NCBI GenBank assembly: GCA_003252385.1
Contig: QKEH01000114.1
Location: 1 to 64,000 of the forward strand
DNA from: Bacteroidota bacterium
Lineage (GTDB): Bacteria; Bacteroidota; Bacteroidia; Bacteroidales; UBA10428
Length of the DNA: 64,000 nt
Direction of reading: 5' to 3'
Under the pieces are notes generated by a model, which was not told the origin of the DNA, ran no database searches, and was given only the letters and a program-made list of their open reading frames with translations. Below, piece by piece: positions 39,918 through 44,583 of the stretch; position 1 is the stretch's first letter, and each line of letters starts with the position of its first letter. The translations under genes and the position numbers were made by a program.

Positions 39918-40601
39918 TCAGCCAAGTAGTTTAAAGCCTTTGCCATGAATATTGATTATTTCGACCGTAGGATCGTCCTTCAGGTATTTGCGTAACTTGG
40001 CGATATATACATCCATGCTTCGGGCGTTAAAGTAGTTGTCATCCACCCAAATGGTTTTTAGAGCAAAATTCCGTTCCAGTACCGAGTTCTTATTCAAACA
40101 CAACAACTTGAGCAGTTCGGTTTCCTTGGTGGTTAACTTCTGGATCCGATCTTTGAGAGTCAGAATCTGTTTTTCGGTATCGAAACGATAGCGCCCTATG
40201 GCAAATTCGTTCTGACTGCTCCCTCCAAATTTACCCGTCCGGCGCAGTATGGCTTCGATACGGTATACCAACTCTTCCATAGAAAAAGGTTTGGTAATAT
40301 AATCATCGCATCCGGCTTTAAAACCATCCAGAATATCTTCCTTTTGCGACTTGGCCGTTAAAAAAAGTATAGGAATGTCGGTATTGGTCATCCGAATTTC
40401 CTTGGCCAGGGTGTAGCCATCCTTAATGGGCATCATAATATCCAGGATGCACAAATCGTAATGCTGTTTGATAAAAGCCTTATAGGCCAATTCCCCGTTC
40501 GGAAATAAATCAGTGCTGTACTTTTTTGCAATCAGGTACTCCCTCAGGAGGCTTCCCAGATTCTCGTCGTCTTCGGCCAACAATACTTTTAATTCGTTCA
40601 T
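39918..40601 (-). CDS. rprY: OmpR-family response regulator, RprY-like
   Basis: VLLAEDDENLGSLLREYL, LDIMMPIKDGYTLA, TAKSQKEDILDGFKAGCDDYITKPFSMEELVYRIEAILRR; Trans_reg_C domain. Confidence 0.85.
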   Translation of the reverse strand: MNELKVLLAEDDENLGSLLREYLIAKKYSTDLFPNGELAYKAFIKQHYDLCILDIMMPIKDGYTLAKEIRMTNTDIPILFLTAKSQKEDILDGFKAGCDDYITKPFSMEELVYRIEAILRRTGKFGGSSQNEFAIGRYRFDTEKQILTLKDRIQKLTTKETELLKLLCLNKNSVLERNFALKTIWVDDNYFNARSMDVYIAKLRKYLKDDPTVEIINIHGKGFKLLG

Positions 40602-42100
40602 AGCTGTTTTATTAATGGCAATTTAATGAAGAAAGAGGTTCCTTCTCCCAATTCCGATTCCAGGGTTATATGCCCTTTATGCTCTTCCACAACCTTCTTC
40701 ACATAGCTCAATCCCAGTCCAAAACCTTTCACGTTATGGATATTACCGGTGGATACCCTGAAGAACTTATCGAAAATACGCCGTTGGTTTGCCCGGCTGA
40801 TTCCTATTCCATTGTCGCGAACGATGATCAGCATATCACTTTGAACGTTACGGGTCTCAATATAGATCTCCGGAGCTACAGTGGTGTATTTAACGGCATT
40901 GTCGAGCAGGTTGGAAAGAATGTTGGTTATGTGTACCGGGTCGCCCTCAATTTGATCGTTATCGGCGTGCAAGGACGGAATGAGCATGCCTTTGCGTGAG
41001 TCGACCTGCAGGGTAAAATTGGCAATGACCGATTCAATAATCTCATGAACCGAAAGAATTTCAAAGGTCAGCTTCATATCGCCCTGATCGAACTTGGCCA
41101 TCTGAAGTACCCGTTCAACCTGATAGCCTAACCGGGCACTCTCATCGGAAATAATACCGGAAATACGGCTGTAATTTTTCTGCTCGGGCGAAATACTTTT
41201 ATCGTTGAGCATTTGGGAGGCTAACGAGATGGTGGATATCGGGGTTTTCAGTTCGTGGGTCATGTTGTTCACAAAGTCGCTCTTCATTTCCGACAAGCGC
41301 TTCTGACGAATAATTACGTAGAGTGTAAAAGCAAATGTAACCAGCAGAAAAAGTGTCAGAACGGATGAAGAAACTACGATAAAACCCATGGAACTGATGA
41401 TCATACCCCGCATATTAGGGAAATACACGGTGAGGTAACTGGGTTCATCAAAGAAGTCGTCGGGAAACAGTTCGATCTGATAGTACTTCTGATGGTCTTC
41501 TTTACGAAAATTTTTCGATTTAAAAATCACCTTCTCGTTCCAGTTGGTAACCGCAAATTCGCATTCCACTTCCAAACCGTGTTCAGCAAGTGCCATTTGT
41601 AAAAAGCGATCCACCAGGTCGGGAGTAACGCGTTTTTCGATACTGCTTGAAAAATTAAACATTTTAGAAACCACGCGATCAATAAATTCCCGCCGGTTCA
41701 ATATTCGTTTTAGCATGGACACATTCTTCGATGGATGTTGCCCGAAGGGATGTCCGATACGCGAACCAAAGAAGATGTTGGTTTGAAGTTCGTATGCGGC
41801 ATCGGAAGAATAAAGCAGCGTATCCCGCTGAAATTTTGTGAGGCTGTCCGCAGCTAATTTAGCCCTCAGATATTGCGTACTATCCCACGAAGCGCCGTTC
41901 ATTTCATCAAAAATATAACTCATGGTTTCATTGCGCTGCATATTAAAGACGGCATCGGTTAAAGCTCTGCGGGCAAACTGATCGAAATGCCGTTCGCTCA
42001 CCTGGTAGGCATTGCGCATCCAGAAGAACTGCAACATAATGAGCCCTAACAGGGCAATACTCATGAATACGGTAACTAGGATGATTAACCTCTTGCTCAT
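40598..42100 (-). CDS. rprX: Sensor histidine kinase, RprX-like
   Basis: Two TM segments, H-box NNMTHELKTPISTISLAS, N/G boxes DNAVKYT, VRDNGIGIS; start MSKRLII at 42100 preferred over 42148. Confidence 0.85.
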   Translation of the reverse strand: MSKRLIILVTVFMSIALLGLIMLQFFWMRNAYQVSERHFDQFARRALTDAVFNMQRNETMSYIFDEMNGASWDSTQYLRAKLAADSLTKFQRDTLLYSSDAAYELQTNIFFGSRIGHPFGQHPSKNVSMLKRILNRREFIDRVVSKMFNFSSSIEKRVTPDLVDRFLQMALAEHGLEVECEFAVTNWNEKVIFKSKNFRKEDHQKYYQIELFPDDFFDEPSYLTVYFPNMRGMIISSMGFIVVSSSVLTLFLLVTFAFTLYVIIRQKRLSEMKSDFVNNMTHELKTPISTISLASQMLNDKSISPEQKNYSRISGIISDESARLGYQVERVLQMAKFDQGDMKLTFEILSVHEIIESVIANFTLQVDSRKGMLIPSLHADNDQIEGDPVHITNILSNLLDNAVKYTTVAPEIYIETRNVQSDMLIIVRDNGIGISRANQRRIFDKFFRVSTGNIHNVKGFGLGLSYVKKVVEEHKGHITLESELGEGTSFFIKLPLIKQL

Positions 42101-42140
42101 GGAAACAAAGATACCTATTGGAACCTTTTGATCTGTAAAC

Positions 42141-42180
42141 CTTAACAATCTTTAACAAAGCTTGAAAAAACTTAACAGAT
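42141..42180 (+). repeat. Four direct 10-bp repeats, candidate response-regulator binding array
   Basis: CTTAACAATC TTTAACAAAG CTTGAAAAAA CTTAACAGAT in exact 10-bp register. Confidence 0.7.
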
Positions 42181-42188
42181 GAATGCAC

Positions 42189-42196
42189 TACATTTG
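42189..42196 (+). promoter_or_regulatory. Bacteroidota -7 element (TACATTTG) divergent from rprX
   Basis: Matches TAnnTTTG; 8 bp spacer after the repeat array. Confidence 0.6.
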
Positions 42197-42202
42197 TTTC
42201 AT

Positions 42203-42352
42203 ACAAAACAAGCAAGGTTCAGAGACATAAAAAAATAGGAAAATTTCTTTTTCATGGTGATTAGTTAGTAAAGTTAGATTACTGATTCTTTTCATAGTTA
42301 AAAATGGGTTAGGGTTTGTGAAGGAGGTCGAAAGGCCTCTTTCTTTTTTTTA
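42203..42352 (+). ncRNA. Candidate small RNA of about 150 nt divergent from rprXY
   Basis: Promoter at 42189, no meaningful ORF, internal hairpin AGTTAGTAA-AGTTAGA-TTACTGATT (42263-42287), strong terminator at end; start coordinate approximate. Confidence 0.5.
42323..42352 (+). terminator. Rho-independent terminator of the candidate sRNA
   Basis: GAGGTC-GAAA-GGCCTC followed by TTTCTTTTTTTT. Confidence 0.8.
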
Positions 42353-42504
42353 TAAAAACCCGAGCAACGACGGGTAGCTGCTCATTGAATTGACCGTGGC
42401 AAGCCATTCTGCCAAAACGAAGTTACACTCCATCTAACATACAGACACAATGAGAGACACCCGTTGCAAAGGTTTATCGAAAAATGGATTCACCCCCATT
42501 CAGG

Positions 42505-44583
42505 CTAAAAGGAATTTACCAGCCTCATGTCAGGCTGGGGAACTTTGGACAAACTCACACGGATCGCCTCAAAAAGCTTCTCCTGAGTTAGGGGTTTGGT
42601 CACATACGCCGAACAACCGGCCTTCCGGCACTTTTGTTCATCGCCATCCAGGGCATTTGCAGTTTGGGCAATAATCGGCAAATGGGGCCACTGTGCAGAA
42701 ATATAACGGGATGCCTGATAGCCATCCAGCATCGGCATTTTAATGTCCATCAACACCAAATCTATCTCGTCATGGCTTTCCACCCGCTCAATGGCCTCAA
42801 CTCCATTGCACGCCCGGATAAGTTGTACCCCGGTTGGCTTTAATACCTCACTCAGATAGATATAGTTGCACTGATCATCTTCAGCAATGAGCAGTGTATA
42901 TCCTCGTAGGTCGGGTGTTACTGCGGATGACAGGGACGCTCCTCTCGATTCGCTGCATTGCGGCTCCGGCAAGGGGTGCAAAGGCAACACAACATTAAAA
43001 CAAGTCCCCTCACCGGGAGCCGATTCCACCCGAATGGTTCCATGCAACAATTCTACAATACTTTTGCTAATAGCCAATCCTAAACCGGCACCTGACCAAT
43101 ATCCCGGAAGATTGTTCTCAATCTGAAAATGGCTTTCGAAAATGGCGTCCTTGAACTCAGCAGGCATACCAATACCCGAATCACGTACCGTAAAAATAAC
43201 TTTTGCATCATCCAATACTTTATATCCGTATTGAATGGTGCCCCGCTCTGTGAACTTTGCCGAATTGGTTAACAGATTGAGGATAACCTGCTTCAACCGG
43301 TCTGCGTCGGTATACAATTGCAGAGTACGGAGGGAAGTGTCCACATCCACTATCAGATCTACATCCTGCATGTGGTTGTATTTTCGTAACGTTTGTTCAA
43401 TTACCGCTTTAAGATCCAATAATAGACTATAGGGATTGCAAACCCGGTATTTAACTTTCAACTTTTTACTCTCGAGCTTGGAGAAATCAATAATATCGTC
43501 AATAATATGAAGTAAATCGGCGCTGCTATTTCGAATGAGGTGGAGAAAATGATTTCGATCGTTTGTAGAGAAATTCCTCTCCAGCAACAAATCCGTAAAC
43601 CCAAGTATGGCATTCATGGGGGTACGAATCTCATGCGACATATTCGCTAAAAAGGAAGTTTTTTGTCGATCCAGGTTTTCGGCTCTTTCTTTGGCTGTTC
43701 TCAGCCGTGCCTGTACTGTATGATGTTCTGTCCAGTCTAGCACCGTAGCCAGAATACCTTCCTCCTCCAAGGTCGCTAACTCGTACCTTTGGAGGGTGGT
43801 GCGGTACTTTTTTTCTTCGGTCTTCTGCTTTAACGCGATCGTGAAACCAAGTTCTTTAGATGCGGAATGAAAGAAACCTTTAGCCCTCATTGAAATGTGA
43901 TCTATAAAAGATCCCTGATCTTCTGCTGCCCCGACCTGACTGAACGATTCGATCAAACTCATCGCTGCTGGGTTAGCATAGAGCAATTGCCCTTGTTGGG
44001 TAAAAATAAAGACAGGTAGAAGCAAGCCGGCAAACGAATCAAATTCCAAGGAAGCGGATTTGGGACAAATCGCCTCAGGTGGATGGAGGATCATTGCCTG
44101 AAACTGAATGGCCAATTCCAGATTTTCGAATTGACTATCAATAAAGGCACACACCGCATCGAATGTCGTTGAATATTGCAGGTGCAGCCTGGTAAATCGC
44201 AATACCTCTTTTTTCAGAAGTTTCAACCTGTACAAATAACCGAACAGGTTGCGCTGATTCTGCTTGAACCGATCGCTATTCTGCAGAGCGAAAGAATGAT
44301 ACGGATTTTTTATTCCAAATTCAAGGGTACTTTCGGAAACCACAAAGCTTTGGGAACGAAGCTCTTCGGCCAGGATGTTTACGATTTGAAGAACATCATC
44401 GTCGGGCAACTCCTGTATTGAAGGCCTTTCGCTGTTTTGCAATCTTTCGTCGAACCGGCAATCATTCAATTGCCGTGCAAGATTCACACTGCCAGCTGCC
44501 AGTGTACTGGCAAATTTCTCCACGCAGTCACTAATTTTCATCAGATGTAAGTTAGTTGTCCATCCTTCTTTTAGGCTGATCAA
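42505..44583 (-). CDS. Soluble hybrid histidine kinase (PAS-like region, HisKA, HATPase, REC)
   Basis: FLANMSHEIRTPMNAILGFTDLL, VRDSGIGMP, GAGLGLAISKSIVELLHG, REC LVLMDIKMPMLDGYQAS; no clear TM segment. Confidence 0.92.
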   Translation of the reverse strand: MISLKEGWTTNLHLMKISDCVEKFASTLAAGSVNLARQLNDCRFDERLQNSERPSIQELPDDDVLQIVNILAEELRSQSFVVSESTLEFGIKNPYHSFALQNSDRFKQNQRNLFGYLYRLKLLKKEVLRFTRLHLQYSTTFDAVCAFIDSQFENLELAIQFQAMILHPPEAICPKSASLEFDSFAGLLLPVFIFTQQGQLLYANPAAMSLIESFSQVGAAEDQGSFIDHISMRAKGFFHSASKELGFTIALKQKTEEKKYRTTLQRYELATLEEEGILATVLDWTEHHTVQARLRTAKERAENLDRQKTSFLANMSHEIRTPMNAILGFTDLLLERNFSTNDRNHFLHLIRNSSADLLHIIDDIIDFSKLESKKLKVKYRVCNPYSLLLDLKAVIEQTLRKYNHMQDVDLIVDVDTSLRTLQLYTDADRLKQVILNLLTNSAKFTERGTIQYGYKVLDDAKVIFTVRDSGIGMPAEFKDAIFESHFQIENNLPGYWSGAGLGLAISKSIVELLHGTIRVESAPGEGTCFNVVLPLHPLPEPQCSESRGASLSSAVTPDLRGYTLLIAEDDQCNYIYLSEVLKPTGVQLIRACNGVEAIERVESHDEIDLVLMDIKMPMLDGYQASRYISAQWPHLPIIAQTANALDGDEQKCRKAGCSAYVTKPLTQEKLFEAIRVSLSKVPQPDMRLVNSF

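Follow-up and report, generated by a model that had tools for sequence, protein, structure and literature searches.

The window (the whole stretch of DNA analysed, 64,000 nucleotides) carries on its minus strand the genes of a two-component system and, diverging from them on the plus strand, a predicted small RNA (sRNA). The features are as follows:

39918..40601 (-): RprY-like OmpR-family response regulator gene (NCBIfam NF051850, E 2e-109, 364.5 bits)
40598..42100 (-): RprX-like sensor histidine kinase gene (HisKA and HATPase_c; ATG at 42100 chosen from homologues)
42106..42113 (-): rprX -7 element TATCTTTG, separated from the rprX ATG by 5 nt, at a conserved spacing from the first TTAAC
42141..42180 (+): four 10-bp direct repeat units, predicted from sequence and conservation to be the RprY operator (no binding data)
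42189..42196 (+): TACATTTG, sRNA promoter -7 element, at a conserved 47-nt spacing from the first TTAAC
42201..42352 (+): predicted small RNA of ~150 nt, from promoter and terminator positions, absence of an ORF and conservation
42246..42283 (+): predicted genome-specific stretch antisense to the leader and start codon of a susC gene (G000:C109:5755), -42.6 kcal/mol
42282..42316 (+): conserved core CTGATTCTTTTCATAGTTAAAAATGGGTTAGGGTT; in relatives, predicted to pair in antisense with susC start codons
42320..42352 (+): GAAA-capped intrinsic terminator, stem-loop GAAGGAGGTC-GAAA-GGCCTCTTTC followed by a T-tract

Both minus-strand genes were identified by family profiles, in agreement with the original prediction that the sRNA locus diverges from an RprX/RprY-like operon. 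The regulator is full-length and just missed the NF051850 equivalog cutoff (364.5 vs 370 bits), yet it scored far ahead of the next family (164.7 bits), and we therefore refer to it as RprY-like. Homologues of RprX were present in 60 of 60 relatives. Since the -7 element of rprX ends ∼5 nt before the start codon (42100-42113; 5-9 nt in relatives), the rprX mRNA may, judging from these positions, be leaderless or nearly so. On the far side of the sRNA, the minus-strand terminator of a hybrid histidine kinase gene (42505-44583) occupies 42361-42384 and converges on it.

The repeat array consists of the units CTTAACAATC TTTAACAAAG CTTGAAAAAA CTTAACAGAT, of which the first, second and fourth contain TTAACA, while the third is degenerate and TTG-like in relatives too. 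Thus, the four-copy repeat that had been predicted is there, with one imperfect copy, and the same holds for the promoter element claimed to follow it: TACATTTG starts 8 bp after the end of the array, and no -33 TTTG was found at the correct position of the window's sRNA promoter. A 10-bp-spaced TTAAC pair lies upstream of at least 24 of 48 rprX homologues, as opposed to at most 1% of shuffles; this count is a lower bound, as some loci that it missed do carry the pair. The loci span the family of the window and several other families. From the first TTAAC, the distance to the rprX -7 element was 35-37 nt in the 22 loci examined, and the distance to the divergent TAnnTTTG was 47 nt in each of the 11 loci with such an element downstream. 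It is this constancy of spacing in both directions, maintained across genera and families, that provides the best evidence for an operator shared by the two divergent promoters. There was no sign of a large regulon, which we had considered on the basis of the repeat pattern and rejected: the pattern (TTAACAnnnnTTAACA) as such was not enriched in the genome of the window, and among 20 TTAACAnnnnTTAACA loci fetched from that genome, only the present one has a TAnnTTTG at +47.

The likeliest alternative accepts the RNA as real and directed against susC, and assigns the repeats to rprX autoregulation alone, with the sRNA being controlled in some other way. Porphyromonas gingivalis RprY was found to bind its own promoter region, in a paper from which no binding motif could be taken (PMC3646045), and the position of the array suits rprX just as well. 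However, the 47-nt spacing on the sRNA side varies no more than the spacing on the rprX side, and the lack of a proper -33 box is what one would expect of an activated promoter. We thus regard this explanation as unlikely. A stand-alone sRNA governed by the adjoining OmpR-family regulator remains the best reading and is supported by these data, with transcription as well as RprY binding and control being inferred. A literature search retrieved no paper that joins RprX, RprY and an sRNA, with subscription papers mostly outside its reach.

As for the RNA itself, its 5' end (42201) was inferred from the -7 element. No meaningful plus-strand ORF was found in the region, which bears out the predicted ∼150 nt of noncoding sequence between promoter and terminator. 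The terminator, foreseen as GNRA-capped and followed by a T-tract, was found with its GAAA loop, and the region holds four terminator-like sites compared with 0.6 in shuffles. The combination of array, promoter and terminator is found again on the divergent side of rprX, both in the genus and in further families of Bacteroidales; relatives keep the terminator hairpin and T-tract, with stem sequences that differ and pairing that is maintained. The same cannot be said of the 9-bp hairpin at 42263-42287 that was part of the original prediction. It can form, overlapping a predicted seed, but is absent in relatives, and was therefore dropped as a conserved element. The whole sRNA is not unusually stable (z -1.1).

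Conservation within the genus concerns the 3' core (CTGATTCTTTTCATAGGT..GGGTTAGGGTT), which is nearly invariant, and not the upstream part of the sRNA. Seven genus members have a near-invariant CTGATTCTTTTCATAG..GGTTAGGGT followed by the terminator. The core lies ∼80 nt from the inferred start of the RNA and occurs once in the genome of the window; its pattern matched six records in the named-genome collection, all of them uncultured Bacteroidales metagenome-assembled genomes. An RNAalifold structure of the core was discarded because terminators had been aligned out of register, and a sequence-only model was used instead. The rprX upstream regions of Bacteroidaceae did not yield an RNA of the window's type. 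In one relative (G006), an Acido-Lenti-1 RNA (RF01687) scored above the gathering score slightly beyond the sRNA (L013:716-762).

A start codon has its complement in the core. Sequences close to the complement of the core turn up repeatedly in the form CTATGAAAAGAATTAC, and each of the eight such loci read was the start of a SusC-type TonB-dependent receptor gene, mostly with a common leader; the sequence model of the core likewise finds susC starts of relatives, on their antisense strand. When cores were paired with leaders of their own genomes, none of 362 background starts was as good as the cognate duplexes in G001 (-39.2 and -33.3 kcal/mol), G002 (-35.0 kcal/mol), G008 (-35.4 kcal/mol) and G009 (-29.0 kcal/mol), and one of 362 was as good in G010. 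The duplexes of relatives stood at z -5.5 to -7.6 against shuffled leaders, with uninterrupted pairing (including G-U) over the start codon of 17-21 nt in G001, G002 and G008. For the cores of G012 and G014, duplexes with the leaders tested were not significant, and with complete RNAs the cognate targets ranked near the top, though not always first. In the block immediately preceding the ATG, sRNA and leader co-vary: the A-rich GGUAAUAAU of the G002 sRNA faces a U-rich leader (UUUUUAUC), the U-rich GGUUUUUAAU of the G005 and G008 sRNAs an A-rich one (AAAAAUC), and in G009 a diverged sRNA is matched by a jointly diverged leader. That the start codons of mRNAs for SusC-type TonB-dependent receptors are the antisense target of the core is a new proposal of this analysis and relies on complementarity and co-variation only. 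As a separate observation, susC 5' leaders are unusually conserved in the family of the window, with the form TTAACCTATTATAAACCTAAAATTT..CTATGAAAAGR (L111-L116, L156, L217-L222).

The window's own genome has a main target other than that of the relatives, whose susC orthologue is absent there, and no complement of the core with up to two mismatches lies at a gene start elsewhere in that genome. Instead, the full RNA paired best, among five SusC-like genes, with the start of G000:C109:5755, a TonB-dependent receptor gene (-42.6 kcal/mol; none of 133 background starts as good; z ∼-5 against either shuffled leader or shuffled RNA), mainly through positions 42246-42283. A second SusC gene (on contig C156) gave -22.6 kcal/mol with the 3' core, a value reached by one of 133 background starts. 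Target assignment in this genome is weaker than in the relatives because the pairing comes in segments and because the background gene starts were a sample rather than the whole genome.

One could also imagine that RprY controls an sRNA directed mainly at mRNAs other than susC, and that the complementarity arises because Bacteroidales leaders resemble one another in general (TTAACCTAA..ATGAAAA). The TTAACCTAAA motif is indeed common among susC leaders of the window's family, and the FopS sRNA of Bacteroides has the same motif complement. Yet the pairing reaches 17-21 nt and is better than that of all background starts, and sRNA and leader co-vary in the genus; these results speak against this notion, which we consider improbable. 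Least credible is that the region serves a gene downstream as its attenuator or leader, or that the intergenic signal is spurious: the RNA does end in an intrinsic terminator, but no plus-strand gene follows (the next gene, on the minus strand, has its own terminator), and conservation excludes a spurious signal.

We therefore favour, as the probable interpretation, a conserved trans-acting sRNA divergent from rprXY that is activated by RprY and blocks susC translation. RprY, probably in its phosphorylated form, would bind the 10-bp repeats and thereby activate the sRNA promoter, and perhaps that of rprX as well. On SusC-type receptor mRNAs, the sRNA would then pair with leader and start codon and block translation, in the way demonstrated for FopS, so that triggering of the sensor would end the synthesis of selected large importers as an outer-membrane branch of the RprXY response. 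The computational analysis establishes the anatomy, spacing, conserved core, antisense complementarity and co-variation, while transcription, the role of RprY as activator and translational repression are inferred. SusC importers are major outer-membrane proteins of Bacteroidota. If true, the model provides a concrete output for the poorly understood RprXY system, ties a two-component sensor to post-transcriptional control of these importers, and extends start-codon-antisense sRNAs beyond Bacteroidaceae, with specific RNA-mRNA pairs named.

In G022, G029 and G036, what follows the position of the sRNA promoter is a gene for a small secreted protein; the three proteins are mutually similar and matched no Pfam family above cutoff. 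Such small acidic proteins, encoded behind this promoter position divergently from rprX (L021, L029, L031), belong to three genera or families other than that of the window. Two susC starts are matched in antisense by the G036 3'UTR (-22.9 kcal/mol, a value reached by 0 of 133 background starts, and -19.7 kcal/mol, reached by 1 of 133), while RNAs of G022, G028, G029 and G055 (3'UTRs in G022 and G029) gave nothing significant with the few susC leaders used. In genus g4, five loci (L020, L024, L025, L028, L030) have a different kind of rprX-divergent RNA, whose conserved TTTTCTTCCCCGAAAA hairpin carries a C-rich loop; pairing of these RNAs with susC was rejected, being not significant with the leaders tested. 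FopS-like sequences also exist at other loci in the family of the window, three of them after coding genes. A second conserved FopS-like RNA locus of g4, not adjoining rprX, reads ..TTTAGGTTTAATGGTTAGGGTTAAAA plus terminator (L265, L280, L268, L271; G013:C62, G016:C105, G017:C245, G021:C121). At L276, L277 and L284, a FopS-like core (GGTTAGGGTTAG plus terminator) directly follows the stop codon of a coding gene, and is thus probably 3'UTR-derived; the end of the gene product resembles a secretion C-terminal domain.

The secreted-protein mRNA of G036 with its anti-susC 3'UTR recalls cpxP-CpxQ of Enterobacteria, where a transcript beside a two-component envelope regulator yields an sRNA (PMC4817254), yet there is no RNA evidence for it and a relation of the secreted proteins to CpxP has not been shown. 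The window RNA, in contrast, stands alone without a coding part and, lacking an ORF, does not qualify as an sRNA in the 3'UTR of a secreted-protein mRNA, an arrangement seen only in other genera and families. That it derives from such a 3'UTR is a hypothesis. More tentatively than the favoured model, RprXY might be an envelope-response system that commands a coding and a noncoding arm from one divergent promoter: some families would have a small secreted protein whose 3'UTR is directed against susC, reduced elsewhere to a stand-alone anti-susC sRNA; we hold this to be possible rather than probable. If true, it would be an independent Bacteroidota counterpart of cpxP-CpxQ.

The closest known relatives in kind are the FopS/GibS sRNAs of Bacteroides (RF04319; PMC11697453, PMC7366714), which share with the window RNA a UUUUCAU seed antisense to the start codon, a GGUUA stretch and a single-stranded region followed by the terminator. 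FopS represses susC translation by pairing beside the start codon, which the RRM protein RbpB counteracts (PMC11697453), in a phylum that offers no Shine-Dalgarno or Hfq basis (PMC7366714, PMC11697453). The target type is thus common to both, shown for FopS and predicted here, where pairing with the susC start-codon region rests on complementarity and co-variation only. FopS was also the best Rfam match of the window RNA, yet at 24.1 bits it stayed below the 56-bit gathering threshold (best relative, L011, 31.8 bits), and a search of the window's genome with RF04319 returned no match. Besides, FopS is multicopy (12-15 in Bacteroides), whereas the window's genome has one match with model R2; the FopS R1 seed sits at the 5' end directly behind TAnnTTTG, whereas the window seed lies near the terminator; and FopS genes lack a repeat array such as the one behind which the window RNA diverges from rprX. 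The likeness may reflect homology or convergence on similar susC leaders.

In Enterobacteria, outer-membrane proteins are subject to repression of the OmpR/MicF and sigma-E/RybB type. While regulator lineage, targets and pairing are different there, the window RNA would follow the same logic, leading from an envelope regulator through an sRNA to an outer-membrane protein.
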